A stretch of 64,000 nt of DNA from Aquabacterium sp. Its GTDB lineage: Bacteria > Pseudomonadota > Gammaproteobacteria > Burkholderiales > Burkholderiaceae_C. Within the stretch, counting starts at the first letter, position 1; each line of letters opens with the position of its first letter. The position numbers and the translations under genes are program-made. The notes beneath the pieces are model-generated. The model was not told where the DNA came from and made no database searches. It saw only the letters and a list, made by a program, of their open reading frames with translations. The DNA is taken from assembly GCF_021768455.1 (NCBI RefSeq), contig NZ_JAIZVX010000001.1, forward strand, positions 1 through 64,000. Direction: 5' to 3'. Shown piece by piece: positions 34,567 through 55,557 of the stretch.

Positions 34567-37323
34567 TCAGGCGCTGCCCAGCAACTTGAGTGCGCGAGCC
34601 CTGGCCAGCGCCGCAGAGCGACTGCCGACGCCCAGCTTGGCGTAGAGGTTGCGCAGATGCCACTTCACAGTGGGCAGCGACAATGACAGCCGATCGGCCA
34701 TCTGCAAGTTGTTGAGCCCCTGGTCAAGCAGGGCCAGTATCTGCAGCTCGCGCGCCGAAGGCGCCTCAACGTAGGCCACGCCCTCTTCCGTCTGTGGGCG
34801 GCTTGAATCAGCCCCGTCGGCGGTTGCACTGACATGCGCCATCAGACGCCCCCACAAGGCCAGCTCCGAGGGCAAGTTCAGGCCCAGATCCTTGTCCTTG
34901 AGTTGCAAAAGCCACGCGCTCAACCAGTTGATGCGCGCAAGGAAGGGCGACAGCAAACGCCCGGGTGCCGCCATGGCCAAGGCGAGCGACAAGCTGCGTT
35001 GCGCTCTGTTGAAGTGCCGATCGCGCACATGGATTTCCGTTGCGGCGGCCAGCAACTCGACCTGATCACGCATGCGGTGCTGCCCCTGTGCGGTGCGCAG
35101 ACGCTGCTCGATCGCGTTCAGCGCAGCCTCGTGCTGCCCCTGTGCGATCAGGACATCGATCGATGCCATCATCCAGTCGCCTCGCTCCGGCATGCTCCGG
35201 TCGCGGCCCAGCTGACACCGTGCGGCCAGTGCCTCGGCTTCGGCCAGGCGCCCCAGTTGCACGCAGCGGCGCACACGGCTAGCGGTCAGGAATTTCAAGG
35301 CCCGTGCCGGGTAGCTCAAGGCGATGCGCTCCAGCATGGCAGACGCCAGCATCTCGTCGCCCTCACCTTGCCACAGTGCGGCGCAGGCACTCAGACCCTG
35401 CTCGGCGCTCGTCATCACACCCTGCAAGGTCGAACAACTCGTGCTCATCTTGGCCACGCGCCTCGCCCGATCGGTGAAACCCAGATCGCGCAGCGCCCCC
35501 ACATGCACAAAGTCGATGGCGTCCAGAACATGCACGTCCGCGCCGATCAGGTCAACCACCTTGGCTCGCACCGCCTGCAAGAGCTGATCGGCCAGATCGG
35601 GTCGCCCCTGCGTGATTTCCGCACAGGCGCGCACGATGGCGACCCATGCCATGCCCCAAGGGCTGCTGGATCGGTCGATCACCGCCTGCGCCTGCGTGAG
35701 GTGTTGAGCGGCCACCATCAGGTCGCCATGGTCGATTTCAGTCATGGCCAGCAGGGTGATGGCCGTGGCATGACTCAGGGCATCACGAGGGCAGTCCCTT
35801 TCCAGCCAGGCGCTCGCGCACGCCCGCGCCTCGGGCAAGCGATCCAGGTACACATTGATGATGAGGCCCAGGAATTCGGCCCGCGCCTGCTCACGCACAC
35901 CGGCCTGCGCAAGGCCCTGCACGCCAAGGCGGTCCAGTGCCTTGCTCGCGCGTTCGTACTGCATGGTATGGCAGAGCGCCCAGACATACCAGCCATGGGC
36001 TTCGCTCGAGATGTCTCCGCCGATGGCCATCAGACGGTCGGCCCAGGTGATGAAGGGCGCCATCCGATCCTGGTCGCCCACCACCACGGCCGCCACGCGA
36101 TCCAGAAGCTGCTCAGCCAGCACCACCGCCTGCGCATCCAGCGCGATGGGCAGTGCGTTGATGTCGTCACCCTGTTGTGCATGCCAGCTCGCAGCACGCT
36201 CAAGCACTTCACGTCGGCGCTCGCCACTCAGGCGATCCCTGCCTTCCGCCAGCAAGAACTCGCGCAGCAGGGTGTGGAAGCGCAACCACCGCCGATTGCG
36301 GTCCAGTGGAAAGATCAGCACATTGCGCGCCAGCAGATCATCCAGCCACGCCCTGGCCTCTGAGCAACCCGTCATGTGCGCGGCCAACTCGACGCTGAAT
36401 TCGCGAAGCGGCGCGATCTCGAGCATGAACTGCACCTGTTGGTCGTCAAAGCCGACCAGCACTCGCCGCGCCAGCAGGCGGGCGATGTCGATCTGGTCGC
36501 CGCCAAAACGCGCCAGCACCCCATCGAAATCCAGATGGGCGCCCTCCCCCTGCAGCCGCTGCTCCCCAGACATCAGCACCTGCAACAGCCTCAGCGCCGT
36601 GGGCCAGCCTTCTGTTTGCGCCTCGATGCGCTTGAGCAGACGCTCGTCCAGTTGCACCAGGCCGGCCTCGGCAAACAGGCTGGCCACGCCTGACTGGTCC
36701 ATGCGCAGATGAGGCACGCCCAGCTCCAGCGCCGACAACTCGAGCTTGGCGCGCACCATGTCGATGGGCAGTTCACGCGTGCTGGAAACGACGATCTTCA
36801 GATGAGGGCCGCTCTGAAAGATCAGGCGATCCAGAAAGGCCGGCAATTGCGGGTCACGACAATAGCCCAGGTTGTCGATGAACAGCACCACCTCTGACTC
36901 GAGCTGATTGAACTGCTCAAAGATGTCGTCGCGCGCCACGCCGCGGCCAGACAGCGCCTGAAGCATCGACGCCGGCTCGCCCAGGCTGAGCAAGCAGGCA
37001 TGCGACATGGCAATCCGCAACAGGTAAAGAAGCGTCGAGAGGTCCGTGTCGCGGTCATCGAGTGTGACCCACACGCCACGCCGCCCCTCGTTGACCAGCT
37101 GCTGGTGCAGCCGCGTCAGCAATACCGTCTTGCCATAACCCGATGGTGCCGTCACCAGCACCAGCTTGGGCAATGGCTGCAACTGCTGCAGCGCAGCCAG
37201 CGCACGGGTGTCCACGGCATCGAACTTGAAAGTCGGGGGAGCGATGCGCGTCTCGTGCGCGACGACATCCTGCTCGCCAGCCTGAACGGCGCTGACCAAG
37301 CCGGCAAAGGTCTCACCCATCAC
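34567..37323 (-). CDS. Large ATP-binding LuxR-family (MalT/AlkS-like LAL) transcriptional activator
   Basis: 918 aa; LVTAPSGYGKTVLLTRLHQQL P-loop near N-term; C-terminal LuxR HTH PSARELQILALLDQGLNNLQMADRLSLSLPTVKWHLRNLYAKLGVGSRSAALARARAL; divergent from ADH/xylM-like operon. Confidence 0.9.
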   Translation of the reverse strand: MMGETFAGLVSAVQAGEQDVVAHETRIAPPTFKFDAVDTRALAALQQLQPLPKLVLVTAPSGYGKTVLLTRLHQQLVNEGRRGVWVTLDDRDTDLSTLLYLLRIAMSHACLLSLGEPASMLQALSGRGVARDDIFEQFNQLESEVVLFIDNLGYCRDPQLPAFLDRLIFQSGPHLKIVVSSTRELPIDMVRAKLELSALELGVPHLRMDQSGVASLFAEAGLVQLDERLLKRIEAQTEGWPTALRLLQVLMSGEQRLQGEGAHLDFDGVLARFGGDQIDIARLLARRVLVGFDDQQVQFMLEIAPLREFSVELAAHMTGCSEARAWLDDLLARNVLIFPLDRNRRWLRFHTLLREFLLAEGRDRLSGERRREVLERAASWHAQQGDDINALPIALDAQAVVLAEQLLDRVAAVVVGDQDRMAPFITWADRLMAIGGDISSEAHGWYVWALCHTMQYERASKALDRLGVQGLAQAGVREQARAEFLGLIINVYLDRLPEARACASAWLERDCPRDALSHATAITLLAMTEIDHGDLMVAAQHLTQAQAVIDRSSSPWGMAWVAIVRACAEITQGRPDLADQLLQAVRAKVVDLIGADVHVLDAIDFVHVGALRDLGFTDRARRVAKMSTSCSTLQGVMTSAEQGLSACAALWQGEGDEMLASAMLERIALSYPARALKFLTASRVRRCVQLGRLAEAEALAARCQLGRDRSMPERGDWMMASIDVLIAQGQHEAALNAIEQRLRTAQGQHRMRDQVELLAAATEIHVRDRHFNRAQRSLSLALAMAAPGRLLSPFLARINWLSAWLLQLKDKDLGLNLPSELALWGRLMAHVSATADGADSSRPQTEEGVAYVEAPSARELQILALLDQGLNNLQMADRLSLSLPTVKWHLRNLYAKLGVGSRSAALARARALKLLGSA

Positions 37324-37665: not shown

Positions 37666-38817
37666 ATGAACGCCCTGGTCGACGGCTCACCGCTTCAACA
37701 CACAGCCTCGGCACGCCGCGCCCGCGCTGCCCTGGCTCGCCGCCCTCAGACGCCCCTGCTCCTGGAAGACATCGACGTGGCCGAGCCCCGCGCCGACGAG
37801 CTGCTGGTCCGCATGGTGGGCAGCGGCATTTGCCACACGGACATCGTCTGCCGCGATGGCTTCCCTGTGCCCATGCCCATCGTGCTGGGGCATGAGGGCG
37901 CTGGTGTGGTCGAGGCGGTTGGCGCAGCCGTCACCGGCTATGCCCCTGGTGACCACGTGGTCATGTCCTTCAACTCGTGTGGCAGCTGCGCCAACTGCGA
38001 GAGCCACGAACCGGCCTACTGCCATCAGTTTCTGGGCCTGAATTTTGGCGGGGCCTTCCAGGATGGTCGCGCCACGCCCTTGAGCCAGAACGGTGAACCG
38101 ATCTTCGGCAATTTCTTCGGGCAGTCATCGTTTGCCTCGCTGGCCATCGTGCGTGCCAGCAATGCGGTGAAGGTAGACAAGAGCCTTCCGCTGGCGATGC
38201 TGGGCCCGCTGGGTTGCGGCATCCAGACCGGCGCCGGCGCTGTCATGAACACCTTCAAGCTCAAGCCCGGGCGTGCCATCGTGGTTTTTGGCGGCGGTGC
38301 GGTCGGCCTGAGCGCCGTGATGGCGGCCAAGGCGCTCAAGGCCAGTGCCGTGATCCTCGTAGAGCCCAACAGCCAGCGCCGCGCCCTGGCATTGGAGCTG
38401 GGCGCCACCGCCACCATCGACCCGCTGGATGGCAGCGACACCCTGGCGGCCATCCGCGCAGCAGGGGGCGGCACGGGCGTGAGCTACGCCCTCGACACCA
38501 CGGGCATTCCGTCGGTGGCCGCCACGGCAACCGAGGTCTTGTTGCCCAACGGACAACTCGGCCTGATCGGCATCCCACCACCGGACGCGCACTTCCCCAT
38601 GTCGATCATGAGCGCCTACGTGAAGGGGATTGGCATCAAGTGCATTGTCGAAGGCGACAGTGACCCGCACACCTTCATTCCCCAATTGATCGCACTCCAT
38701 CAAGACGGGCAACTGCCATTTGATCGCTTGATCAAGACATTCCCCTTCGAGCAGATCAACGAAGCCATCGCCTCATCAGAGAACGGCTCGGTCATCAAGC
38801 CTGTCGTGTTGTTCTGA
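37666..38817 (+). CDS. Zn-dependent alcohol dehydrogenase (aryl/benzyl-alcohol dehydrogenase, XylB-like)
   Basis: GSGICHTDIVCRDGFPVPMPIVLGHEGAGVVEAVG; NSCGSCANCESHEPAYCHQF; VFGGGAVGLSAVMAAK. Confidence 0.9.
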   Translation: MNALVDGSPLQHTASARRARAALARRPQTPLLLEDIDVAEPRADELLVRMVGSGICHTDIVCRDGFPVPMPIVLGHEGAGVVEAVGAAVTGYAPGDHVVMSFNSCGSCANCESHEPAYCHQFLGLNFGGAFQDGRATPLSQNGEPIFGNFFGQSSFASLAIVRASNAVKVDKSLPLAMLGPLGCGIQTGAGAVMNTFKLKPGRAIVVFGGGAVGLSAVMAAKALKASAVILVEPNSQRRALALELGATATIDPLDGSDTLAAIRAAGGGTGVSYALDTTGIPSVAATATEVLLPNGQLGLIGIPPPDAHFPMSIMSAYVKGIGIKCIVEGDSDPHTFIPQLIALHQDGQLPFDRLIKTFPFEQINEAIASSENGSVIKPVVLF

Positions 38818-38846
38818 ACCCGTTTCATCTCGCACTGGAGACCAAT

Positions 38847-39944
38847 ATGTGGGACTACATCAAATACTACCTGGCACCGTTGACGCTGGTGTTGGCCATC
38901 GCCGGCATGCTGCATGGCGGTGCCTTCGTGTGGACCGGCCTGGCCATGCTGCCCCTGCTTGCCGTGATCGACAGCCTGTTGCCCCCTGATCTGGCCAAAC
39001 GCCAGATCAAGAACCGCACGCTGGCCTTCATTCCCATCTGGCTTTGCACGCTGCTTTGCCCGACCCTGTACGTGGTCATGGCCTGGGTCGTCGCGCACCA
39101 GGCGCTGAGCGGCTGGGAGATCACAGGCCTGGTGATGAGTTGCGCCTGGCTGTCGGTCCTGCCTGGCGTGACGGCCTTTCATGAGCTGTACCACGCACGC
39201 GGGCGCATTGGCCGCACGGTCAGCCGCTATGCGCAGGTCTGCTATCTGGATACCACGCGCATGGAGGCTCATGTGGTGAGCCATCACCGTGATGTCGGCA
39301 CCGCCGAAGACGCGGACACCGCCGCCCGAGGCGAGACGCTCTATACCTTCGCCGGGCCTGCAGTGATCGAGTCCACCCTGCTGGCACAGCGCATCGAATC
39401 CGACAACCTGGAGAAGCGCGGCTACGGACGCTGGTCCATCCGCCACCACCTGTGGCGCGCGATCCTGGCTCAGGTCATCTTTCAAAGCATGCTCTTTGCA
39501 ATCGGTGGCTGGCAGGCCGTTGCCATGGCTTTGACTGCGATGGTGATTGCACGCTATTGGATCGAGACCTTCAACTACTTCCAACACTACGGTCAGGTGC
39601 GCGTGAGCGGCACCCCCATCGAGAAGCGCCACGTGTGGAACCACTTTGGCACGCTCTCTCGCCTGGTGGCTTTTGAGATCACCAACCACGCCGACCACCA
39701 TCTGAACTCCTACCTGGCGTTTTACGAGCTGGTGCCGCACCGCGAGTCGGTGCGCATGCCCAGCGTGTTCGTGTGCTTCTTTGCCGCGCTGATCCCGCCA
39801 GTCTGGTTCAACATGATCATCAAGCCGGCCCTGCGCGAATGGGACGCCCACTACGCCACCCCTGAAGAGCGCAAGCTGGCAGCCGAGCAGAACCGAAAGG
39901 CCGGCTGGGAAGACTGGTCTGCGCAGCCCGCAGCCTCGCACTGA
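38847..39944 (+). CDS. xylM: XylM/CymA/AlkB-family membrane di-iron hydroxylase
   Basis: His boxes HELYH, HVVSHH, FNYFQHYG, EITNHADHH; length and C-terminal region (FVCFFAALIPPVWFNMIIKPALREWDAHYATPEERKLA) match remembered XylM. Confidence 0.9.
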   Translation: MWDYIKYYLAPLTLVLAIAGMLHGGAFVWTGLAMLPLLAVIDSLLPPDLAKRQIKNRTLAFIPIWLCTLLCPTLYVVMAWVVAHQALSGWEITGLVMSCAWLSVLPGVTAFHELYHARGRIGRTVSRYAQVCYLDTTRMEAHVVSHHRDVGTAEDADTAARGETLYTFAGPAVIESTLLAQRIESDNLEKRGYGRWSIRHHLWRAILAQVIFQSMLFAIGGWQAVAMALTAMVIARYWIETFNYFQHYGQVRVSGTPIEKRHVWNHFGTLSRLVAFEITNHADHHLNSYLAFYELVPHRESVRMPSVFVCFFAALIPPVWFNMIIKPALREWDAHYATPEERKLAAEQNRKAGWEDWSAQPAASH

Positions 39945-39984
39945 GCGCACCCCACCCGTCGCCCACCTTCTGCGAACCCACGCC

Positions 39985-41052
39985 ATGCGCAAGTTTTTCC
40001 AATCCTTGCTGGGGCGCCCCTCGGCACCCCAGCGACTCCAGGTGCTGCCCCAAGGTGTCACCGTGGACATCGCCCCAGGGCAGACGCTCCTGGAGGCGGC
40101 CCTGACCAACGGCATCGCTTACCCGCACGATTGCACCGTGGGCACCTGTGCCTCGTGCAAATCGCATCTCAAGCAAGGCCGGGTCAGAGAGGCCACGCCC
40201 TTTGGCTACACTCTCTCCAAGCTGGAGCTGGACGCGGGCTTCATCCTGGCTTGCCAGGCGTTTCCGCGCGATGAGCTCACCATCATCGAGGTCAGCCCGC
40301 AGTCCGCCGACATGCCGCCAGCCGAGCGTTTCGTTGGCACCATCACCTCGACCACGCCCCTCACGCACGACATCGTCAAGGTCTGCGTGCGCACGGACCG
40401 CCCCGTTCACTACGTGGCCGGCCAGTACGCCAGCATCACGGCCGAAGGCCTGCCGCGCGCCCGCCACTACTCTTTTGCCGATGCACCGCAGCGCGAAGGG
40501 CGCAAGGAGTTGACCTTCTTCATCCGCAAGGTGCCTGGTGGTGGCTTCACCGAAGCCCTGTTCAAGGGCGAGTTGACAGGCCAACCCCTCATCGTGAATG
40601 CGCCGCACGGGCACTTTCACCTCAGGCCAGGCAATGCGCCCATGGTCTGCGTTGTGGGCGGCAGTGGCCTGGCGCCATTGCTGAGCGTGCTGGAACATGC
40701 CCGCCGCATCCGCATCAAGCGTCCTTGCGTGGTCCTGTTCGGCGCTCGCACACAGGCCGACCTGTACATGGTCGACGCCCTGCAGGCCATTGGCGCCGCA
40801 TGGCTGGACGCCTTCACTTTTGTGCCGGTGCTGTCGCATGAGCCCGCCGACAGCGACTGGACTGGCGCGCGCGGCATGGTCACCGACCACCTGAGCACCG
40901 CCGCATCCGGCATCGACTGGGCCGTGGCCGAAGCCTACATGTGCGGCCCGCCGCCCATGATCGACGCGGCCATCTCTCGCCTGGTCGATGCAGGCATGCC
41001 GCTGGCCTCCATCTTCTACGACAAGTTCACTGACGGAAAGGACGCCCCATGA
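39985..41052 (+). CDS. xylA: XylA-like electron-transfer component: plant-type [2Fe-2S] ferredoxin fused to FAD/NAD(P)H reductase
   Basis: CTVGTCASCKSHLKQGRV...ACQAF ferredoxin Cys motif; ARHYSFADAP FAD site; VVGGSGLAPLLSVLEHA and MCGPPPMIDAAI NAD site. Confidence 0.92.
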   Translation: MRKFFQSLLGRPSAPQRLQVLPQGVTVDIAPGQTLLEAALTNGIAYPHDCTVGTCASCKSHLKQGRVREATPFGYTLSKLELDAGFILACQAFPRDELTIIEVSPQSADMPPAERFVGTITSTTPLTHDIVKVCVRTDRPVHYVAGQYASITAEGLPRARHYSFADAPQREGRKELTFFIRKVPGGGFTEALFKGELTGQPLIVNAPHGHFHLRPGNAPMVCVVGGSGLAPLLSVLEHARRIRIKRPCVVLFGARTQADLYMVDALQAIGAAWLDAFTFVPVLSHEPADSDWTGARGMVTDHLSTAASGIDWAVAEAYMCGPPPMIDAAISRLVDAGMPLASIFYDKFTDGKDAP

Positions 41053-41822
41053 ACGCACCACTTCCACAAACAGCACGAGCCCTCATGGCCGAGGCAGCAG
41101 CTCAAGTCGATCCCAAAGAGTTTGGCTACTGGCGCTTTTGCGCCTGGATGGGCCCGGTCTTCATGGGTGTCTTCATCGTCTTCTGGGGCATGATGGGGCA
41201 CAACATCCCCCCCTGGTCGGGCGACGCGCCTGCGGCCGATGTCGCCAACTGGTTCCGCGCCGAGGCCAACACCATCCGGCTGGGCATGGTCGTGGCCATG
41301 ACCTTCGCGGTCTGCTACGCGGTATGGGGGCTGGCCATTGGCCGCGTCATGGGTCACATCGTGGCCAAGGACAGCATCCTGGTTGACCTTCAGGTCTGGG
41401 GCGCCGGCCTGACCGTGGTGCCGGTGCTGGTGTCGACTTCTTTCTGGCTGACCGGCTCCTATCGACCGGACGCGCTGCCAGACAACATCCTGCAAATGCT
41501 GTATGACATGGCGTGGCTGCTGATCGACCTGGCCTATGCGGTCACGTCGGTGCAGATGTTTGCCCTGGGTGTCGGCATCTTGAAGGACAAGCGCGCCAAC
41601 CCGCTGATCCCCAAATGGTTTGCCTGGTATGGCATCTGGGTCGGCTTCATGTTCGTTGCCGAGTGCCTGATGCCCTTCTTCAAGAGCGGCGCTTTTGCCC
41701 GCCAAGGTGTGCTGAATTTCTGGATCGAATTCATGATCTGGTTCGTGTGGGTGCCCACTCTGAGCTTCTTTGCACTCAGGGCCATCAACCGCATCGAGCG
41801 CGAAAGCAGGATGGCGCCTTGA
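41049..41822 (+). CDS. Polytopic membrane protein, 257 aa, unknown function (paralogue of 42754..43494)
   Basis: 4-bp overlap with xylA-like gene; RFCAWMGPVFMGVFIVFWGMMGHNIPPW, several hydrophobic spans. Confidence 0.8.
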   Translation: MNAPLPQTARALMAEAAAQVDPKEFGYWRFCAWMGPVFMGVFIVFWGMMGHNIPPWSGDAPAADVANWFRAEANTIRLGMVVAMTFAVCYAVWGLAIGRVMGHIVAKDSILVDLQVWGAGLTVVPVLVSTSFWLTGSYRPDALPDNILQMLYDMAWLLIDLAYAVTSVQMFALGVGILKDKRANPLIPKWFAWYGIWVGFMFVAECLMPFFKSGAFARQGVLNFWIEFMIWFVWVPTLSFFALRAINRIERESRMAP

Positions 41823-42433
41823 GCAACGCTCTGCCTGCGGTTGGAACGCCGCGCACCCAGGCCAACGCCAGCGCCCAGGTGCGCACCCTGGTGGGCGACA
41901 GCGGCCTTTGGTTCTTCATCGCTGCGGACACCCTGGCCTTTGGCGTGTTCTTTCTGGTCTTCACGATCGGTCGACATGCGCAGCCAGCCTTGTACGAGAG
42001 CGCAGCTCGCCACCTCCAGGTTGAACTGGGCCTGCTCAACACCGTGATCTTGCTGAGCAGCGGCGCACTGATGGCACAAGCCGTGCTCGCCGCGCGCCGC
42101 CTCGACCGCGCGGCCTTGTGCCGCCACCTCGTTCTGGCCATGCTCGTGGGCAGCGCCTTCGCGGTGAGCAAGGTCTGGGAGTACACCAACAAGATCCAGG
42201 CGGGCATCACCCTGCTGACGAACGAGTTCTACATGTACTACTTCGTGTTCACAGGCGTGCATTTCCTCCACTTTGTGGTGGGCATGGTGGCGCTGATGGT
42301 GGCCCTGTCCAAGGCACGGCAGGACGCCATGGGCCCGGAATTGACCGGCTGGGTCGAGTCCACAGGCGCCTACTGGCACATGGTGGACCTGCTGTGGATC
42401 ATGCTCTTTCCCCTCCTCTACCTGCAGCGATGA
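41819..42433 (+). CDS. Cytochrome c oxidase subunit III-like (NorE-type) membrane protein
   Basis: TTG start overlapping upstream stop (TTGA); VGDSGLWFFIAADTLAFGVFFLVF, NEFYMYYFVFTGVHFLHFVVGMVALM, GAYWHMVDLLWIMLFPLLYLQR. Confidence 0.85.
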   Translation: MSNALPAVGTPRTQANASAQVRTLVGDSGLWFFIAADTLAFGVFFLVFTIGRHAQPALYESAARHLQVELGLLNTVILLSSGALMAQAVLAARRLDRAALCRHLVLAMLVGSAFAVSKVWEYTNKIQAGITLLTNEFYMYYFVFTGVHFLHFVVGMVALMVALSKARQDAMGPELTGWVESTGAYWHMVDLLWIMLFPLLYLQR

Positions 42434-42702
42434 GCCAAGCCACCCACACCCCTGCCGACGTCACCCGCGTCTGGTTGCTGCTGCTGGCCATCACCGGCCT
42501 AACGACTTATCTGGTCGAGTGGGGCTCGGTGAGCCCTGCCGTCACGACGACCGCCGCGTTGTGCGCGGCTTCGTTCAAGGCTCGCCTGGTCATCCTGAAC
42601 TACATGGAATTGCGCGACGCCCCGCTGGCCTGGCGCTCCATTTTCGAGGCATGGAACATCGCCTGTCTGTGCCTGATCCTCGGTGCCTATTGGTGGCGCT
42701 GA
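42430..42702 (+). CDS. Cytochrome c oxidase subunit IV-like (NorF-type) small membrane protein
   Basis: 90 aa; VWLLLLAITGLTTYLVEWG...FKARLVILNYMELRDAPLAWRSIFEAW; 4-bp overlap with COX III-like gene. Confidence 0.8.
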   Translation: MSQATHTPADVTRVWLLLLAITGLTTYLVEWGSVSPAVTTTAALCAASFKARLVILNYMELRDAPLAWRSIFEAWNIACLCLILGAYWWR

Positions 42703-42753
42703 GCCCCTGATGCAAGCGCTTGCCCACCACCTCCATTGAATGGGAACCTTTGA

Positions 42754-43494
42754 ATGCCCAACAACACCCCTCTGTCCATCAAGCAGCGCTATGCCCTTTT
42801 GCGAACCTGCGCATGGGCTGGCCCCATTTTCCTGGCGGGCTATGTCCTGTCCTGGGGCGTGATGGGGATGAACATTCCGCCCTTGCCTGCCGGCATCGAC
42901 GTCAATGCCTTGCATGCGCACTACCTTGAGCACAGTTACCGGCTGCGCGGCGCTTTTGTCTTGAGCGTCTTTTTCATTCCCTTCTACTTCGCGTTCAGCA
43001 GTGCCGTGTCTCGGGTGATGCAACGCATCGAAGGGGCGGATGGGCCCATGGCCATCGTCGAGCAACTCGGCGGGGCCACGACCACCGTGGTGGGCATGGT
43101 GGCTGGCATCTGCTGGCTGACCGCAGCCTACCGCGTGTCCGAGTTCACCCCCGCGCAAGTTCGTGGACTGCATGACTTTGGCTGGCTCTTCTTCGACACA
43201 ACCTACATGGTGACCGGCTTGCAGATGCTGGCCATGTCCAACGTGTTTCTCCGCGACCCGAGGTCCGAGCCCCTGATCCCGCGGTGGCTGTCGTGGTACG
43301 CGATTTTTGTGGTGCTCGCTTTTCTGCCCCTCAGCCTGATGCCCTTTTTCTACGAAGGCGCCTTCACATGGGCTGGCACCTTCTGCTACTGGGTCTCGCT
43401 CGGCTCATGGTTTGTCTGGCTGACCTTGCTGAGCTGGTACATGTTTGTCGCCATCAACCGTCTGGAAGAAGAAGAGCGCACCAGCCAGACGTGA
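42754..43494 (+). CDS. Polytopic membrane protein, 246 aa, unknown function (paralogue of 41049..41822)
   Basis: RTCAWAGPIFLAGYVLSWGVMGMNIPPLP parallels RFCAWMGPVFMGVFIVFWGMMGHNIPPW in the first copy. Confidence 0.8.
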   Translation: MPNNTPLSIKQRYALLRTCAWAGPIFLAGYVLSWGVMGMNIPPLPAGIDVNALHAHYLEHSYRLRGAFVLSVFFIPFYFAFSSAVSRVMQRIEGADGPMAIVEQLGGATTTVVGMVAGICWLTAAYRVSEFTPAQVRGLHDFGWLFFDTTYMVTGLQMLAMSNVFLRDPRSEPLIPRWLSWYAIFVVLAFLPLSLMPFFYEGAFTWAGTFCYWVSLGSWFVWLTLLSWYMFVAINRLEEEERTSQT

Positions 43495-43588
43495 GCACGT
43501 ACACCGTCGCCCAGCTCGCAAGGGTGATGACACCTCCTGCACGCCGCGCCTTCCGCGTTCGCGCATTGACCTCAGAAAGGACAACCGC

Positions 43589-44383
43589 ATGTCTGAAGCA
43601 TTCACCTCACTGAAGCTCACCCGTGATGCCGGCCTGGCCACGCTCACCATGACCCAGGCCCAACGTGGCAACCCGATTGACGGGACCTTCTGCCGCGAGT
43701 TTCGGCAAGCCGCCTTGAGCTTGTGGAACATGCCTGGGCTACGTGCCGTGCTGCTGCGCGCCGAAGGCCCCAACTTCAGCTTTGGCGGCGACATCAAATC
43801 CTTCGCGCCGCTACGCGAGAACCTCGGCGCGCCCATTCGCGAGTGGACGGCCGACCTGCATGCTGGCCTGTCTCGCTTCTGGCAGTTGCCAGTGCCGGTC
43901 GTGGCCGAGGTCCAAGGGTGGGCCATGGGGGGCGCCGTGGGCCTGCTGGCAGGATGCGACGTGGTGGTGGCCGCACAGTCGGCCAAGCTGGGTTCGGCCT
44001 TTGCGCAATTGGGCTTCAGCTGCGACTCGGGCTCCAGCGTGACGCTCAGCGCCCGCATGGGCGCGGCCAGAGCGCGGCGCTTCACCTTGCTGGCCGAGGT
44101 GCTCAAGAGCGAAGAGGCCCTGCAGGCCGGCCTGGTGGACAAGGTCGTGGCCGACGAGGAGCTGGCCGATCACTGCCAGATGCTGGCCACCGGCCTGGCC
44201 CAAGGCCCCTCGGTGGCCTACGGCGAAATCAAGCGCCTTTTCCTGCGCGTGGGTCAGCAATCCATGGAAGCGCAGCTCGAAGACGAGGCCTTGACCCTGG
44301 CTCGCGTGGCGGGCAGCCAGGATGCCCAGGAGGGCATTGCCGCCATGGCCGCACGCCGCAAGCCCAACTTTGTTGGCGCCTGA
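43589..44383 (+). CDS. Crotonase-family enoyl-CoA isomerase/hydratase (PaaG-like active-site arrangement)
   Basis: GPNFSFGGDIKSFA, GWAMGGAVGLLAGCDVVVAA; LGFSCDSGSSVTLSARMG in place of PGAGGTQRL. Confidence 0.85.
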   Translation: MSEAFTSLKLTRDAGLATLTMTQAQRGNPIDGTFCREFRQAALSLWNMPGLRAVLLRAEGPNFSFGGDIKSFAPLRENLGAPIREWTADLHAGLSRFWQLPVPVVAEVQGWAMGGAVGLLAGCDVVVAAQSAKLGSAFAQLGFSCDSGSSVTLSARMGAARARRFTLLAEVLKSEEALQAGLVDKVVADEELADHCQMLATGLAQGPSVAYGEIKRLFLRVGQQSMEAQLEDEALTLARVAGSQDAQEGIAAMAARRKPNFVGA

Positions 44384-44409
44384 GCTACCGGGCAGAACGG
44401 AGCAACACC

Positions 44410-44781
44410 ATGAAACTGAGCTTGAGGCATGGCTTCTTTCTCGTCGTCGGCATTGCCGCGCTGTTCCTGACCTGGCCTCATGCCTTGGAATGGATGCGGC
44501 AGGGCGGCAACATCCTGAACCCCATTCAGTTCTTTGCCGACGCGATCAACGCAGGCGGCACCGCGGCCTTCCTCAGCATCGACATGGCCATCGCCTGGGT
44601 GGTGTTCATGGTGTGGGTGGTGATCGATGCCCAGCGCATCGGGATGGGCATCAAATGGGGCTGGTTCTTTGTGGGCCTGTCCTACATCGGTGTGTCGATG
44701 GCGTTCCCGATCTACCTGGTCACCCGCGAGCGCTTCATTGACGCCCGCAAGCAGGCCGAGGCCCAGCCGGGGCTCAACTGA
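44410..44781 (+). CDS. DUF2834-like small membrane protein
   Basis: 123 aa, ~3-4 hydrophobic spans; FFADAINAGGTAAFLSIDMAIAWVVFMVWVVIDAQRIGMGIKWGWFF. Confidence 0.7.
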   Translation: MKLSLRHGFFLVVGIAALFLTWPHALEWMRQGGNILNPIQFFADAINAGGTAAFLSIDMAIAWVVFMVWVVIDAQRIGMGIKWGWFFVGLSYIGVSMAFPIYLVTRERFIDARKQAEAQPGLN

Positions 44782-44804: not shown

Positions 44805-44835
44805 AAAAGGGCCAGGGTGATTCCCTGGCCCTTTT
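44805..44835. terminator. Strong bidirectional Rho-independent terminator
   Basis: AAAAGGGCCAGGG-TGATT-CCCTGGCCCTTTT perfect 13-bp arms between convergent operons. Confidence 0.9.
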
Positions 44836-47597: not shown

Positions 47598-48866
47598 TCA
47601 GTGGCCTGCGCGCCGCAAGGCGTCAGGCTGAAAATCCTGGGTGCGCCCTGCCTGACCAAATTGCCAGGGGGCGCTGTAGCCGTTGTCCAGCCCCGTGAGC
47701 ACATAGCTCTTGTTGCTGAAATCGAACCACCACTCGAATCGGTAAGCAGGTACGGGCACCGTGTAGACCTGCATCAGACCGTGTACGCCCGCCCGCCACA
47801 GCTGGCCCTTGGCGTCATAGGCCTCGCTGAGCAACACGGCCCAGCTGTCCTCGTCGAGATAGAAAACGCGGCGCGCGTAGACATGGGTCTGCCCGGCCTT
47901 GAGGGTGGCCTCGACCTGCCACACCCGATGCAGCTCGAAGCGCATCAACTCCGGGGCAGGTGATCCTGGCAAGGCGATGCGTGTGTACGGGATGCGCTTG
48001 TCCGCGATGCGGTAGTTGTTGTAGGGCACGTAAAGCTCACGCTTGCCCACCAGCGTCCAGTCGTAGCGATCAGGTCGGCCGTTGTAGCCATCGTATTGGT
48101 CGACGATGGCCAGGCCGTCCGCGGCGTTCTGCGCGCTGTCATAGGCCAGGTCGGGTGCCCGCCGAACACGCCGCTGACCGGCGTTGTAAACCCAGGCACG
48201 GCGCTCGGCCTGTGTCCTGGGGTCTGGCTCGTGCACGAGGTAGATCGTGCCCACCAGATCGGCCGGGCTCAGGAAGTGCAGCCTGGACACGAACAACCGA
48301 TCGGGCTGATGCTCGTCGAGCAACGCCTCATAGACCTTGTCTTCATGGACCCCAATTTGCTGGGCGTGGCCATTGGCTCGCACAACAAAGGTGTCCACGT
48401 CGCGCCTGACGCCCCCGCCCTGGTCACGCAGCAGGTGGTTGGTGATGGCCTCCAGCCCATTGCGTGGCGTCACAAAGGGCACTGCCGCGGCATTGGCCCG
48501 GAAAGCTGCCGTCCGGTGGCTGGCATACACATGCATGCGAAAGGCCGGCGCCTGCTTGAGCAAGGCCAGCAAGCCAGGGCTCAGACAGGGCTGATGGGTG
48601 GGCGAGGCGGCACTTGCCGCGTCGATCACGTGCAAGGGCTTCTCGTCAGGGAAAGGGTCGACCAGGCCCTGCCCCGCCAGCCATCCCGGTGGAGGCTGAG
48701 ACAGCCCACCGCGCCACGGCGGAATGCTGCCCTGGGCGTTACCCGCGAGCTCGGCGCCCACTGACGTCAGCCCGACGGGCGCCCCCTGCGCAGACATAAC
48801 CCACACAAGGCTCAGCCTGACAGCGCACCCAAGGGCCCCTGTCATCCCGAGTCGGTACGCCGTCAT
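47598..48866 (-). CDS. DUF1329-family protein (copy 2)
   Basis: AWVYNAGQRRVRRAPDLAYDSAQNAADGLAIVDQYDGYNGRPDRYDWTLVGKRELYVPYNNYR; paralogue of 52316..53671. Confidence 0.88.
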   Translation of the reverse strand: MTAYRLGMTGALGCAVRLSLVWVMSAQGAPVGLTSVGAELAGNAQGSIPPWRGGLSQPPPGWLAGQGLVDPFPDEKPLHVIDAASAASPTHQPCLSPGLLALLKQAPAFRMHVYASHRTAAFRANAAAVPFVTPRNGLEAITNHLLRDQGGGVRRDVDTFVVRANGHAQQIGVHEDKVYEALLDEHQPDRLFVSRLHFLSPADLVGTIYLVHEPDPRTQAERRAWVYNAGQRRVRRAPDLAYDSAQNAADGLAIVDQYDGYNGRPDRYDWTLVGKRELYVPYNNYRIADKRIPYTRIALPGSPAPELMRFELHRVWQVEATLKAGQTHVYARRVFYLDEDSWAVLLSEAYDAKGQLWRAGVHGLMQVYTVPVPAYRFEWWFDFSNKSYVLTGLDNGYSAPWQFGQAGRTQDFQPDALRRAGH

Positions 48867-48871
48867 GTCAC

Positions 48872-51304
48872 TCAGCCCTTGGCGGGCAGGCGATCCGGCA
48901 CGATCCAGGCAGCCAGACCGGGCAAGAGGAAGATCGCACCAAACACGTTGACCAGGAACATGAAGGCCAGCAACACGCCCATGTCGGCCTGGAACTTCAG
49001 CGTGGAGAATGTCCAGGTGATCACCGAGATGGTCATCATCGCAGCCGTGAAGATGGATGCCGTGCCGCGCTGCTTGAGCGAGGCCACGAAGGCGTCGCGC
49101 AGGTTCATGCCGCTGTGGGCCATCTCGTGGCGCATGCGCTCGAACAGGTAGATGCCGTAGTCGACCCCCACGCCGACGCTGATGGCGATCACCGGCAAGG
49201 TGTTCACTTTCACGCCGATGGACAGCATGGCCATGATGGCGTTGCAAAGCAGCGTGACTAGCGCCAAAGGCAGGATCACACACAAGGTGATCCGAACCGA
49301 GCGGAAGGTCACCAGGCACAACAGGCTCACCGCGGCGAACAGGGTCAGGTTGACCCACTTGTCGGACTGTTCGACCACCTCATTGGTCGCCGCCATCACG
49401 CCGATGTTGCCCGAGGCCAGACGGAAGGTGATGCCCTGGCCATCGTGTGTCTTCTTGAAGGCCTGGACCTTGTCGACGATGCGGCGAATCGTGGTGGCCT
49501 GGTGGTCGATCGGGAAGACCGAAATGGGGATGGCGTTGCACTGGGTGTTGCGGAACTCATTGCCCAGCCGCGATGCAAACCCGGTGGCCTGCGCGATTTG
49601 CTCGCGCGTTTCCGGCAGCACGCGCCACTTCACCCAGCCTTCTGAAAAGTCCTGCGTGACCTTGCCAATGAACGAGGCCATGCCGCGCACCGCGGCCACG
49701 CCTTCGGTCTGACGCATGTCGGACTCGAAGGCCTCGACCTTGGCCAGCACCTCTCGGTTCAGACAAGGCGAGGCGTCCCCTTCCAGTTCGGCAATCACCT
49801 GCAGCACGTCCAGGCCAATGGCGAAGTGGCTGGTCACCACCTGGACATCCTGGTTGTAGCGGGTGTCGGCGCGCAACTCAGGCACGCCCGTACCCAGGTC
49901 GCCAATCTTGAGGTCACGCACCTCGTACAGACCGAATGCCGTCAGCGCCACGCTCAAGGACAGGGGTAGCATGGCACCGCGGCGCGTGGCCAGAAAGCCC
50001 AGACGCTCCCAGAACCAGTCACCTGCCGTTTCCTTGCCCTCGAGCTTCTTGGCCCTGGATGGCGACAGCTTCATGTAGGACAGCAAGATGGGCAAGAGCA
50101 CCTTGTTGGTGGCGATCATCACCGTCACGCCGATGGTGGCCGTGAGTGCCAGCTCGCGCACGATCTCGATGTCCACGATCGCGATCACGATGAAACCCAC
50201 CGCATTGGCCAGCAAGGCGGTGGCGCCGGGTATGAACAGGTTCACGAAGCAATTGCGCGACGCCGTGATGCCATCCTGGCCCGCCAGTGTCTCCAGCTTC
50301 CAGGCATTGGTCATCTGCACCGCGTGCGACACGCCGATGGCAAAGATCAGGAAAGGCACCAGGATGGACATCGGGTCCAGGCCCATGCCCAACAGCGGGA
50401 GGATGCCCATCAGCCAGACCACGGGAATGGCCGCAGCGAGCAGCACCCAATAGGTCAGCATGGCCGAACCCGAATACCAGTAAAGCATCACCGCCGTGAC
50501 CACAAAGGCCAGGGCAAAGAACTTGATCACACCACTGGCGCCCTGCGCGATGTCGGCACTGGACTTGGCAAAGCCCACGATGTGCACGGACATCTTGCTG
50601 TTCTCGTACCGGGACCGGATGTCTTCGAGCTGGGCACCGACCTGCCGGAGGTCCAGACGCTCGCCGGTCTCGGGGTCGCGGTCCTGCAAGGTGGCCGACA
50701 CGATGGTGGCCGAGCCATCATTCGACACGATGCGCCCCCCCCAATCGGACTTGGCCAGGTTCTGCCGGATGGCCGACAGCTGATCGGGCGCCCCCTTGAA
50801 GTCTGCCGACACGATGGGCCCGCCCTTGAAGCCCTCTTCCACCACCTCGTTCCAGCGCACATTCGGCGTGACCAGCGAGGTCAACGAACTGCGCTCGATG
50901 CCCTTGATGTAGAAGAGCTCGTCGGTGATCTTGCGCACCGCATCGATGCCATCCTTGGAGAACACATCCCCCTGGCGAACCTTGACCGCGATCAGCACCT
51001 TGTCCGCACCACCAAAGTCGCTCTGGTACTTGGTGAAGGTCTGCATGAACTCATGGTGCAGCGGGATCATCTTGGTGAACCCAGCCGTCACATGCAGCCG
51101 CGTGGCGGACAAGCCCAGCAGCACGGTCACCAGAATGCCCAGTGTCAGCCACAGCTTGCGCATGCGAAAGATGCCGTCGGCCACGCGAGCGATCAGGCGC
51201 TCGGAAGGGGCGACCACAGGGTCTGGCTGCACGGCCGATCCTGGCGTAACGGACTCGATCGTGTCCTCGTCGGGGATGGAAAGCATGGTGGTTTTCAACT
51301 TCAA
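48872..51304 (-). CDS. RND/MMPL-family transporter
   Basis: ~810 aa, two hydrophobic blocks (FALAFVVTAVMLYWYSGSAMLTYWVLLAAAIPVVWLMGILPLLGMGLDPMSILVPFLIFAIGVSHAVQM; VGVGVDYGIYLFERMRHE); ATG at 51286 is an alternative to TTG at 51304. Confidence 0.92.
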   Translation of the reverse strand: MKLKTTMLSIPDEDTIESVTPGSAVQPDPVVAPSERLIARVADGIFRMRKLWLTLGILVTVLLGLSATRLHVTAGFTKMIPLHHEFMQTFTKYQSDFGGADKVLIAVKVRQGDVFSKDGIDAVRKITDELFYIKGIERSSLTSLVTPNVRWNEVVEEGFKGGPIVSADFKGAPDQLSAIRQNLAKSDWGGRIVSNDGSATIVSATLQDRDPETGERLDLRQVGAQLEDIRSRYENSKMSVHIVGFAKSSADIAQGASGVIKFFALAFVVTAVMLYWYSGSAMLTYWVLLAAAIPVVWLMGILPLLGMGLDPMSILVPFLIFAIGVSHAVQMTNAWKLETLAGQDGITASRNCFVNLFIPGATALLANAVGFIVIAIVDIEIVRELALTATIGVTVMIATNKVLLPILLSYMKLSPSRAKKLEGKETAGDWFWERLGFLATRRGAMLPLSLSVALTAFGLYEVRDLKIGDLGTGVPELRADTRYNQDVQVVTSHFAIGLDVLQVIAELEGDASPCLNREVLAKVEAFESDMRQTEGVAAVRGMASFIGKVTQDFSEGWVKWRVLPETREQIAQATGFASRLGNEFRNTQCNAIPISVFPIDHQATTIRRIVDKVQAFKKTHDGQGITFRLASGNIGVMAATNEVVEQSDKWVNLTLFAAVSLLCLVTFRSVRITLCVILPLALVTLLCNAIMAMLSIGVKVNTLPVIAISVGVGVDYGIYLFERMRHEMAHSGMNLRDAFVASLKQRGTASIFTAAMMTISVITWTFSTLKFQADMGVLLAFMFLVNVFGAIFLLPGLAAWIVPDRLPAKG

Positions 51305-51317
51305 CTTTCGATGTCAA

Positions 51318-52298
51318 TCAGGGCTTGCTGACTGGTGCGGGGCGCGTGGCAGCACGGTCCTGGCGCCCTGCCACCAGATAGCCCACATAGACCAGGGCAC
51401 CGTCTCTGGCAAAGCTGGCCTGGGCGAGCGGCAAACGAACAGGCACATTGCTGGACGAAAAATTGCGGCCGTTGTCGGCACTGACGGCCATCACGCCATC
51501 GTTGCCAACCAGCACCACTTGGCCATTGGGACCGATGGCGCCGCCGTTGATGGCCACCACGGCGGGAAAGCTCACCTTGCTCCAGGTCTTCCCCTCGTCG
51601 CTGGATCGGAACACATTGCCACGCATGCCGTACACCAGCCAGGCACCGTCAGACAGCGCCAGGGCGCCGAAGAGCGAGCCCTCATAGGGCGAGCTGAGCG
51701 CCGCCCACGTGCTGCCGCCATCACTGGAGACGGCCAAGGTGCCGGACTCGCCCACCAGCAGCAACTTGCCGCCAGCTTCGATCACCTTGGAGATGTGCCG
51801 ATCGAACTCGGGCGAAATGGTGGGCTGGCGCACCCAGGTCAAGCCTCGGTCCGACGACACCAGATAGAGCCCGAATGAGCCGTAGGCCACAAAGCGCCCA
51901 TCGTGGAGTGCCGTGACACCCAGGATGGAGTCGGTTCCGGCATCCTTGACGGCGACCTTCGCCCAGCTCTGTCCGCCATCGGCCGATCGCAGCAAGGAAC
52001 CGCCATGGCCCACCGCCAGACCGACCTCACCCTGGAAGGCCAGTGCCGTCAGCGTGCGATCGGTCAAGGCCTGGCCCATCTGCCAGGTGCGGCCCTGGTC
52101 GAGCGAGGTCACGATGGCCCCCCGCTCGCCCACGGCCACGAGCCTGCCCGCCACGGCTTGGACGTCAAACAGCGCCAACCTGGTCACGTCTACCGACGCG
52201 GCGACCGGCCCCGACACGGAGTGACCGAGCTGATGCCAGCCCCCCAACCCCAGGGCCGAGGCCAGGACCATCGCCTTCATGTACTTGGGCATGTGCAT
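51318..52298 (-). CDS. YCF48/BNR-repeat beta-propeller protein
   Basis: Repeated S.DGG.SW motifs (LLRSADGGQSWAKV, LAVSSDGGSTWAAL, VFRSSDEGKTWSKV, MAVSADNGRNF). Confidence 0.88.
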   Translation of the reverse strand: MHMPKYMKAMVLASALGLGGWHQLGHSVSGPVAASVDVTRLALFDVQAVAGRLVAVGERGAIVTSLDQGRTWQMGQALTDRTLTALAFQGEVGLAVGHGGSLLRSADGGQSWAKVAVKDAGTDSILGVTALHDGRFVAYGSFGLYLVSSDRGLTWVRQPTISPEFDRHISKVIEAGGKLLLVGESGTLAVSSDGGSTWAALSSPYEGSLFGALALSDGAWLVYGMRGNVFRSSDEGKTWSKVSFPAVVAINGGAIGPNGQVVLVGNDGVMAVSADNGRNFSSSNVPVRLPLAQASFARDGALVYVGYLVAGRQDRAATRPAPVSKP

Positions 52299-52315
52299 CG
52301 TGTGCTCCGCGGCGT

Positions 52316-53671
52316 TCAGCGCACGCCCTTGCGACGGATGGCGTCCACCTGGAAGTCGGACCACTTCTTGGGCTCGTTCCAGACCGTGGCTTCCTTGCGT
52401 TCGTTGGTCAGGCCTTCGACGATGTAGCTGCCACTGATCAGGTCATGCTGGATCCACGGGGCCTGGAACATCACGTTCGCGTCGTAGGCTTGAACCAGCG
52501 ACAAGACATGGGTGCGCCACAGGTTGCCGCGGCTGTCGTAGTGGTCGGCCAAGGCGATGGTGTTGCTGTCTTCGTCGATGAAGAAGGTTCGCTTGGCATA
52601 GACATGCGACATGCCGGTCTTCAAGGTGGCCTGAACCTCCCACACGCGGTGCAGCTCGTAGCGCAGCAGATCAGACTTGAGCGAGCCCTTGTCGATCATG
52701 TCCTTGTACTTGAGGCTCTTGTCATTGGCCTTGTAGGCGTTGTAGGGGATGTACATCTCCCGCTTGCCTGCCAGCTTCCATTCGTAGCGGTCCAGTGCGC
52801 CATTGAAGCCCCAGTAGTCGTCTGCGGTGCGCATCCCCTCGTCGCCATCCGAGGCCGCGTCGTAAGCCAGATCGGGCGCCCGGCGCACACGGCGCTGGCC
52901 AGCGTTGTAGATCCAGGCCTGGCGCCCTGCAACCGAATAGTCCACCGGATCGTGCACAAGGTAGATGGTGCCAACCAGCGTCGCTGGTGCGTCATAAGCG
53001 CCATAGAAGGAGAACACATGGTTGGGTTGGCGCTGATCGAAGTTCTGCCCCTGCACCATGTCTTCGCAAAAGCCCACGCGGTAGTAATCGCCGTTGGGAC
53101 GCACCGGCAGCCAGTCCGCGCAACGGTTGTAGCTGCCGAAGAAGTGCGTCAGGTGGTTGTACATGGCCTCCACCCCATTGCTGGGCACGGGAAATGGGGT
53201 GCCAGGCATCGTGTAGTTCTGCAGGGTCAGCCCTTTGAGCATCACCTTGCCGACCATGGCCTTGGTCGCGTCGTACACCGATTGCGGGTTGGCAAAGGTG
53301 CGGTGCGTGCGGTAGACCGGCATCGACAGATGGGGGTATTTCTTCAGCAAGGCCTGCATGCCCGGGGAGACCTTGTCCTTGTACTTTTCAAGGTTCTGAC
53401 CGGTGATCTGGAACAAGGGCTTTTCACCAGCGAAGGGATCGACATACGCCCCACCGGCCTTGTAGCCAGCGGGTGGCTTGGTCAGCCCGCCTGTCCATTC
53501 CGGGATGCTGCCGTCCTTGTTGCCTGCTCGCTCTGCGCCGCTGGGCGTCAGGTCCTTGCCCAGTCGGTCTGCATCCACAGCGGCGTGTGCCAGGGACATC
53601 AAGGACGAGACACACAGGCCCAGAATGGCCGCGCGCTTGCTCGGTGCGAATGTGGGTTGCTTGGTATTCAT
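52316..53671 (-). CDS. DUF1329-family protein (copy 1)
   Basis: N-terminal signal-like peptide; AWIYNAGQRRVRRAPDLAYDAASDGDEGMRTADDYWGFNGALDRYEWKLAGKREMYIPYN. Confidence 0.9.
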   Translation of the reverse strand: MNTKQPTFAPSKRAAILGLCVSSLMSLAHAAVDADRLGKDLTPSGAERAGNKDGSIPEWTGGLTKPPAGYKAGGAYVDPFAGEKPLFQITGQNLEKYKDKVSPGMQALLKKYPHLSMPVYRTHRTFANPQSVYDATKAMVGKVMLKGLTLQNYTMPGTPFPVPSNGVEAMYNHLTHFFGSYNRCADWLPVRPNGDYYRVGFCEDMVQGQNFDQRQPNHVFSFYGAYDAPATLVGTIYLVHDPVDYSVAGRQAWIYNAGQRRVRRAPDLAYDAASDGDEGMRTADDYWGFNGALDRYEWKLAGKREMYIPYNAYKANDKSLKYKDMIDKGSLKSDLLRYELHRVWEVQATLKTGMSHVYAKRTFFIDEDSNTIALADHYDSRGNLWRTHVLSLVQAYDANVMFQAPWIQHDLISGSYIVEGLTNERKEATVWNEPKKWSDFQVDAIRRKGVR

Positions 53672-53687
53672 GTGGATACTCCGTCGA

Positions 53688-55499
53688 TCAGAAGCTCACG
53701 CCAAGCGTCGCGGCAAAGTAATCGCGGTCGCGGTAGGCGTCGTAGGTGGCGTGGTGGTTGTAGGTCACGTAGTTGAGGTCCAGGGTGTACTTCTTGGCGT
53801 ACTCGAAGCGGCTGCCCAGGCCGATGGCGCGGCGCCCCTGGAGGAACTGGCTGTCCACCGAATAGCCGTAGACGTCTTGCGACAGGAAGATGCTGGGCAC
53901 CACCGTCACACCGGTATCCAGGACGTTGTTGTAGGTCAGGTCGAACTTGGCGCGCAGCCCCCAGGAGAAGGGTGTGACGTAGCCATCGTTCTTGCAGCCG
54001 GCCGAGGAAATGTTCAAGGTCCCACAGGTGCTGCCGCCATAGCTGGCACTTGAGCCAGGCCCGAAAATGAAGGCCCGAGTGCCGTAGCGCACCGCTGTGG
54101 GGTCCTTCTTGTAGTTGGGAAGGTCATTCCACTGGAACCCCGCCTCTGCGATCAGGACGTACTGCCCGGCACCCAGCAGGTTGCTGCCGGCCTTCACTCC
54201 ATTGAGTTGGAACTGGGTCTTGTTGGTGCGCCCGTAGCCCAGGAGCAGGCCATTGCCCGCTCTGGCAGTGGCCGCTGCCGATGCGTAGGGGCCGATGCCT
54301 GCCAGGCTCGCATACAGCAAGTCGTTGCCATCCACCTGGGCCGGCACGCCGCGTTGGGTGCTCAACTCCGCGCCCACAGAGATGCCCGCCAGGTTGGTGG
54401 CAGCGCTGATGCCGTACATCTTGATGTCGTTGGCGTAGTCCCAAGACACGGCGAAGGGACTGACCGTTCCGGGAAAGGTGCCGAAGTGCGAACTCAGATT
54501 CGGTGTTCGCGAGTTCAGGCGCTGTGCATACAGGCCAAACTCGGTGTCCAGGGCTTCAGAGTTGAAGCGGTAGGCCAGACCGTACTGGCCAGCATCACGC
54601 CCTTCCTTGCCATCGATGGTTGGCACGTACGCGCCTGCGGCGTAGCCCTGCGCGTTGCTGGTGCCGGGCGCAATGGTCACGGCCGTGCTGCAGGAGTTTT
54701 GTGAGGCTGAAATGGAAGCGGCTGCCGCAGCCCAGTAGTTGCCACAAGCCCCTTCAATCGGCGTGGGCTTCCATTGCAGTTGGTAAAAGGCTTCCAGCGA
54801 GCCATGGCTGCCCAGGCTCTGGTTGGCGAAGATCAGCGGCACCGGCAGGAAAACCTCCTTGAGTTGCACACCCGGCTTGCGGAAGGACGGCAGGTCGATC
54901 GGCGACACCTGGTTGATACCCTGAATGAACAGGCTCTCGCCCCAGTTCACCACCTGATTGCCCAGACGCACCTGCAAGGGCTGGCCAGCGAGTTCGAAGG
55001 TGTCGTACACATAGGCGTCCAGCAGATAGATGCCCTGGAACTTGCTGAGCGGCTCGAAGCCCTTGTCGCTCAGCGGGTCGCGGGATGAGTAGCCATTGTT
55101 CTGGCTGCCGAAACGCACGTTCTGGTTGTTGAGCGTGTAGTCGTACCAGGCCTTGGCCCGCAGCATGGCGCCCAAGTCGCCCTTGTGCACAGCCACTTCG
55201 GAAATCAGCTTGAGCTGCGTTGAAAACGCGTCGCCCTTGTTGTAATTGAGGTTGCCTTCATCAATGGTGTTGTTGCCTGTCCCGTTGGTTTTGCCCACGG
55301 TGGCACCGTCAATCTGACCATAGAGACGGCTGTCCGCATCGCGCGCCCGTATCGCTGTACCCAGCGACAAGGAAGAGGTCCAGCTCCCCGCCCACCCCTC
55401 GCCAAACTCGAAATCCGCTGCCTGGGCCGATGCGGCCAACCCGGCACAAAGCAGCAGGACAGCCTGCCTCGTCAATCGGAACTTGAACTGACTCCTCAT
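53688..55499 (-). CDS. DUF1302-family outer-membrane protein
   Basis: Signal peptide ...LLLCAGLAASAQAADFEFGEGWAGSWTSSLSLGTAIRARDADSRLYGQIDG; C-terminal beta-strand ending in F (YFAATLGVSF). Confidence 0.9.
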   Translation of the reverse strand: MRSQFKFRLTRQAVLLLCAGLAASAQAADFEFGEGWAGSWTSSLSLGTAIRARDADSRLYGQIDGATVGKTNGTGNNTIDEGNLNYNKGDAFSTQLKLISEVAVHKGDLGAMLRAKAWYDYTLNNQNVRFGSQNNGYSSRDPLSDKGFEPLSKFQGIYLLDAYVYDTFELAGQPLQVRLGNQVVNWGESLFIQGINQVSPIDLPSFRKPGVQLKEVFLPVPLIFANQSLGSHGSLEAFYQLQWKPTPIEGACGNYWAAAAASISASQNSCSTAVTIAPGTSNAQGYAAGAYVPTIDGKEGRDAGQYGLAYRFNSEALDTEFGLYAQRLNSRTPNLSSHFGTFPGTVSPFAVSWDYANDIKMYGISAATNLAGISVGAELSTQRGVPAQVDGNDLLYASLAGIGPYASAAATARAGNGLLLGYGRTNKTQFQLNGVKAGSNLLGAGQYVLIAEAGFQWNDLPNYKKDPTAVRYGTRAFIFGPGSSASYGGSTCGTLNISSAGCKNDGYVTPFSWGLRAKFDLTYNNVLDTGVTVVPSIFLSQDVYGYSVDSQFLQGRRAIGLGSRFEYAKKYTLDLNYVTYNHHATYDAYRDRDYFAATLGVSF

Positions 55500-55557
55500 A
55501 TCGCCTCCTGGTCGTCTCCGACTCAAAATTGTTGCCACCTCATGGACACATGTTTTT

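Follow-up and report, generated by a model that had tools for sequence, protein, structure and literature searches.

Organisation of the locus

Annotation pipelines label two genes of the locus described here as cytochrome oxidase subunits, though no oxidase adjoins them; instead, they lie in one operon with a XylM-like membrane hydroxylase. What these genes do in such a place, and with which partners, was examined in the first 64,000 nucleotides of contig NZ_JAIZVX010000001.1 of Aquabacterium sp. (hereafter, the window). The genes belong to a set that recurs in bacteria with catabolic clusters, frequently with several copies in one genome.

Nine genes (ADH–XylM–XylA–MP1–COX3–COX4–MP2–crotonase–DUF2834) run in one direction on the + strand, in the order given by the initial annotation (Table 1). 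The 4-bp overlaps that it had listed were all present, namely XylA/MP1 at 41049-41052 (ATGA), MP1/COX3 at 41819-41822 (TTGA, with TTG as the COX3 start codon) and COX3/COX4 at 42430-42433 (ATGA). The strong terminator proposed for the operon end was likewise recovered as a hairpin of -26.9 kcal/mol (z = -5.4), which a terminator consensus scan missed owing to its short run of only four T residues.

Table 1. Features of the operon and its flanks in the window
Feature	Position	Strand	Remarks
MalT/LuxR-type (LAL) regulator	34567..37323	-	Divergent from operon
Zinc alcohol dehydrogenase (ADH)	37666..38817	+	Pfam ADH_N and ADH_zinc_N
XylM-like membrane hydroxylase	38847..39944	+	FA_desaturase, 64.7 bits; His motifs; subclade distinct from TOL XylM
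XylA-like 2Fe-2S/FAD/NAD reductase	39985..41052	+	
MP1	41049..41822	+	Helical membrane protein of the trio
NorE-type COX3-like protein	41819..42433	+	204 aa; TTG start
COX4_pro/NorF-like small membrane protein	42430..42702	+	90 aa
MP2	42754..43494	+	Divergent second MP paralogue; accessory
Crotonase/enoyl-CoA hydratase family	43589..44383	+	
DUF2834 membrane protein	44410..44781	+	
Strong hairpin terminator	44805..44835	.	Between convergent genes

Orphan status and kinship of the COX3 and COX4 proteins

The initial annotation had seen neither subunit I/II nor NorBC at the locus, and no CoxA- or CoxB-like ORF was found in the window. The DNA read around all loci with the MP-COX3-COX4 trio (see below) contained none of CoxA, CoxB, CcoN, NorB, NorC, NorQ and NorD, while known nor and cox control loci were detected. 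The possibility that relatives carry norB/norC or coxA/coxB beside the cassette was thus not borne out at any trio locus tested. On contig C271, the Aquabacterium genome (4.3 Mb in 316 contigs, assembly rated 90% complete) carries a single canonical coxA/coxB/COX3 set, and contig C98 encodes one cbb3-type subunit I that is only 23% identical to NorB; no NorB above this identity was found in the assembly. Because the canonical set lies elsewhere and this assembly of 90% completeness yielded no NorB, the COX3/COX4 pair at 41819-42702 is regarded as an orphan. Genomes with several orphan COX3 copies also occur.

Both proteins exceeded the Pfam cut-offs (COX3, PF00510, 60.7 bits; COX4_pro, PF03626, 50.6 bits). 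The NorE-like label given to COX3 was supported by the COX3 protein tree, from which, and not from COX4/NorF, membership of the NorE clade is read. In this tree, the trio proteins and the NorE proteins of nor clusters were united in one large set distinct from aa3 subunit III; the NorE rows were nested among the trio proteins (starred branch of 53 rows, support 95/97), and Thiothrix NorE paired with an Azoarcus trio protein (99/97). The aa3 rows fell on one side of a branch with support of 95/73, and the trio proteins did not cluster with CtaE/CoxIII; one trio row (L018) and a fragmentary row from the Aquabacterium genome lay near the aa3 branch. Given many unresolved forks and some long branches, the tree does not settle the exact origin of NorE.

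The COX3 protein has the subunit III fold, with TM values of 0.82-0.88 to the Corynebacterium subunit III, and matches subunit III of both quinol and cytochrome c oxidases. It also has H-x-x-H and W-H-x-V-D motifs similar to those of the aa3/bo3 oxidases, and its invariant histidines are only those common to most ordinary subunit III rows. Unlike aa3/bo3 subunits III/IV, trio COX3 is separate in the tree, has no subunit I or II nearby and is partnered by an MP instead. The arrangement is closer to that of NorE/NorF (e.g., Sinorhizobium meliloti pSymA and Azospirillum lipoferum 4B), in which a COX3-like gene is likewise followed by a COX4_pro-like gene, neither being catalytic. However, norEF sit with norCBQD or norQD and without an MP, whereas the trio has an MP and no nor genes, and the linkage to norCB or norQD typical of NorE/NorF was not found. 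On a Thiothrix fructosivorans plasmid (L220), a NorE/NorF-like pair is accompanied by NorQ, NorD and hemerythrin, but the 10 kb read there contained no NorCB.

Membrane proteins MP1 and MP2

MP1 produced only a sub-threshold match to DUF4386 (PF14329; 22.0 bits against a curated cut-off of 27.6) and is therefore not assigned to that family; MP2 matched neither DUF4386 nor any other Pfam family. As the initial annotation had suggested, the two are homologous (35% identity, E 5.6e-46), although a recent duplication of MP1 as the origin of MP2 was rejected on the MP tree. The MP1 model is a helical protein (mean pLDDT 95.4) for which a fold search against the PDB gave no match (best E 0.11, TM at most 0.40), including no channel, pump or carrier fold. 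Fold searches against viral libraries and an Rfam search returned nothing informative. A remote relationship of MP to COX3, NnrU or NnrS was rejected, with hhalign probabilities of 0.5, 0.7 and 0.1%, respectively.

Conservation in MP falls mainly on Gly, Pro, Trp and Phe residues, together with one Asp and one Gln. No His or Cys is conserved in the MP alignment (no such column exceeded 41%), making a heme or copper protein less likely. MP is the most divergent component of the trio (mean pairwise divergence: MP 0.66, COX4 0.65 and COX3 0.57) and also the most often duplicated, extra copies being common among the loci. Two adjacent MP genes precede COX3-COX4 in six loci (L203-L207 and L209), and two Mycobacterium loci (L073 and L080) have four and five MP genes with no COX3 or COX4 nearby.

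Recurrence and gene neighbourhoods of the trio

A scan of one genome per species yielded 69 loci; since the alignment of all MPs was too diverse, five related MPs served as queries, and the list is biased towards MP1-like members. A tblastn search of plasmids with MP1 returned 19 records, and in most of those opened, MP was followed by COX3 and COX4. From both searches combined, 63 loci contained the MP-COX3-COX4 trio, spread over Alpha-, Beta- and Gammaproteobacteria, Myxococcota and Actinomycetota, and this order was kept in 58 of the 62 cases counted. About 20 loci had an MP without COX3. Of 231 genomes in a mycobacterial family, at least 35 had a NorE-type COX3, only the best candidates having been scored. 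MP was rare within the window's own family. Protein distances were correlated in Mantel tests (MP-COX3, r 0.83; MP-COX4, r 0.78; COX3-COX4, r 0.90; each p = 0.001, uncorrected for shared ancestry), and the MP tree broadly mirrored the COX3 tree.

Recurrence across phyla excludes a chance grouping, and the conserved unit is the trio MP-COX3-COX4. MP2, the crotonase and DUF2834 lie outside this core because the nearest relatives (L026 and L027) consist only of ADH-XylM-XylA-MP-COX3-COX4. A literature search of limited extent found no description of such a module; the trio is thus apparently a widespread, so far undescribed gene module of catabolic clusters.

Labels of neighbouring genes, including oxygenases, are matches to a small reference set. 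By these labels, the trio is accompanied by acyl-CoA dehydrogenases, thiolases, CoA ligases and SDRs and by uptake systems (TonB receptors, MMPL with DUF1302/DUF1329, and MCE), and the oxygenases at trio loci vary (XylM, P450, Rieske, Baeyer-Villiger-type or none recognised). A glycerol-3-phosphate-dehydrogenase-like gene accompanies the trio in both mycobacteria and Gammaproteobacteria (L009, L043, L046, L048, L052, L055, L057-L061 and L179), these copies being 55-93% identical to that of Mycobacterium paragordonae. On a plasmid of Azoarcus sp. KH32C (L015), COX3-COX4 and an MP lie beside 2-hydroxyacyl-CoA dehydratase/activase genes, a context of anaerobic type.

Association with the XylM-like hydroxylase

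The XylM-like protein carries the His motifs HELYH, HVVSHH, NYFQH and NHADHH of the eight-His type and has a 2Fe-2S/FAD/NAD reductase adjacent, as does the membrane His-motif hydroxylase of the TOL-plasmid XylM/XylA system. It is 38.5% identical to TOL-type XylM, and no MP homologue was found on TOL-type plasmids. By comparison, it is 48-76% identical to a subclade that is present in most proteobacterial trio genomes and, at E <= 1e-60, was absent from a sample of 398 other Pseudomonadota genomes. Only this subclade, not TOL-type XylM, is linked to the trio.

The association was quantified in two families, both chosen for an already known trio member, with p values that ignore genome relatedness. 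In the family of genome G980 (58 genomes), NorE-type COX3 of at least 200 bits was found in 17 of 19 XylM-positive against 11 of 39 XylM-negative genomes (p = 1e-5). At a cut of 250 bits, chosen after seeing the data, the counts became 16/19 and 0/39, so that p ranged from 1e-5 to 1e-11 depending on the score cut-off. The genes lay within 20 kb of each other in 10 of the 19, with about one expected by chance. Among 301 genomes of Sphingomonadaceae, where scoring covered only about the ten best COX3 candidates of each genome, COX3 was present in six of seven XylM-positive genomes but only 6 of the other 294 (p = 6e-9). MP and XylM distances were also correlated over 11 loci (r 0.90).

The expectation that the cassette recurs with XylM-family genes was therefore only partly realised: it holds in Proteobacteria, in two families and with linkage, but not in Actinobacteria. 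The XylM subclade is missing from every mycobacterial trio genome and from several proteobacterial ones. Conversely, two XylM-positive genomes (G1018 and G1009) have no high-scoring orphan COX3, and a Sphingopyxis plasmid carries a XylM-subclade gene without a trio in 41 kb. Hence, the initial proposal of a complex between the hydroxylase and all four extra membrane proteins is too far-reaching, MP2 also being outside the core, and the trio as an obligate XylM subunit was rejected on the occurrence of each without the other.

Possible function of the trio

The best reading of these results is that MP1, the NorE-type COX3 and the COX4-like protein constitute a mobile module of three genes, in which an orphan relative of NorE/NorF is joined by a helical partner absent from NorEF clusters. 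Our leading, still tentative proposal, with slightly less than even chances, is that the trio handles a hydrophobic substrate or product at the membrane during catabolism. MP, COX3 and COX4 would form one inner-membrane complex without redox cofactors, managing such compounds by partition, transfer or export, and would thereby feed membrane enzymes, for example the XylM-like hydroxylase at loci that have it, or keep them functional. COX3 and COX4 would provide the common core of the complex, and MP might set its specificity, being more divergent and more often duplicated than the other two. This proposal is favoured by the recurrence of the trio as a unit in catabolic clusters with uptake systems, acyl-CoA enzymes and varied oxygenases. 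However, MP1 matched no channel, pump or carrier fold, which counts against transport, the tight link to one XylM subclade also fits a hydroxylase-specific role, and the MP-only loci indicate that MP can in some cases do without COX3/COX4.

A hydroxylase-specific accessory or maturation module, which would bind the XylM-like protein and stabilise it or help to load or protect its diiron centre, is conceivable but somewhat doubtful. The co-occurrence with one XylM subclade in two families, the close linkage, the translational overlap of MP1 with XylA, the synteny common to L026 and L027 and the MP-XylM distance correlation all agree with it. It accounts poorly for trio genomes without the subclade, in mycobacteria and several proteobacteria, for the Azoarcus trio beside dehydratase genes and for the XylM genes of G1018, G1009 and the Sphingopyxis plasmid. 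In addition, NorE and NorF had no effect on the expression of a heterologous NO reductase (cNOR) (PMC9976466), which makes a maturation role less likely. Protection of the membrane or its enzymes from reactive by-products or solvent stress during catabolism would suit a trio that accompanies many unrelated pathways and has NorE relatives in nitric-oxide clusters; we consider it unlikely, as no stress-response genes or redox centres tie the trio to such a role and the trio sits in catabolic operons.

The fold shared with subunit III of quinol and cytochrome c oxidases could instead indicate a respiratory-type link through which the oxygenase would receive quinol electrons or O2. This is quite improbable, given that MP has no conserved redox ligands, that NADH electrons already come from XylA and that some trio loci have no recognised oxygenase. 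That COX3 and COX4 serve as normal subunits in a terminal oxidase or NO reductase with subunit I elsewhere in the genome agrees with their Pfam names but is largely refuted and deserves very little credence: the canonical set includes a COX3 of its own, single genomes hold several orphan copies, NorE-type proteins separate from aa3 in the tree and the genome contains no NorB above 23% identity. Membership in a normal oxidase was accordingly rejected on the tree, the gene context and the canonical set.

Returning to the handling of hydrophobic compounds, a wider interpretation, possible but rather speculative, is that the trio forms a cofactor-free membrane complex of a new kind that handles hydrophobic catabolic substrates and that NorE/NorF of denitrifiers are a recruited offshoot of this larger orphan family, not a piece of a respiratory oxidase. 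A defined role for the trio would account for a hidden component of hydrocarbon catabolism and provide a handle on the role of NorE/NorF, and the trio may be a missing part for the heterologous expression of XylM-type hydroxylases.

Genes flanking the conserved core

A homologue of the LAL regulator, 45-48% identical, occupies the same place in L026 and L027. Downstream of the operon, the window (47598-55538) encodes DUF1329, MMPL, BNR/YCF48-like, a second DUF1329 and DUF1302 proteins, a typical uptake cluster for hydrophobic compounds; in L026 and L027, the same set lies directly 3' of COX4. The crotonase elsewhere often adjoins an AMP-ligase. DUF2834 (Pfam, 72.4 bits) occurs beside the same XylM subclade in distant genomes, namely in the window, in L098 (21107-21454) and in L029, and its association may thus be with XylM and not with the trio.
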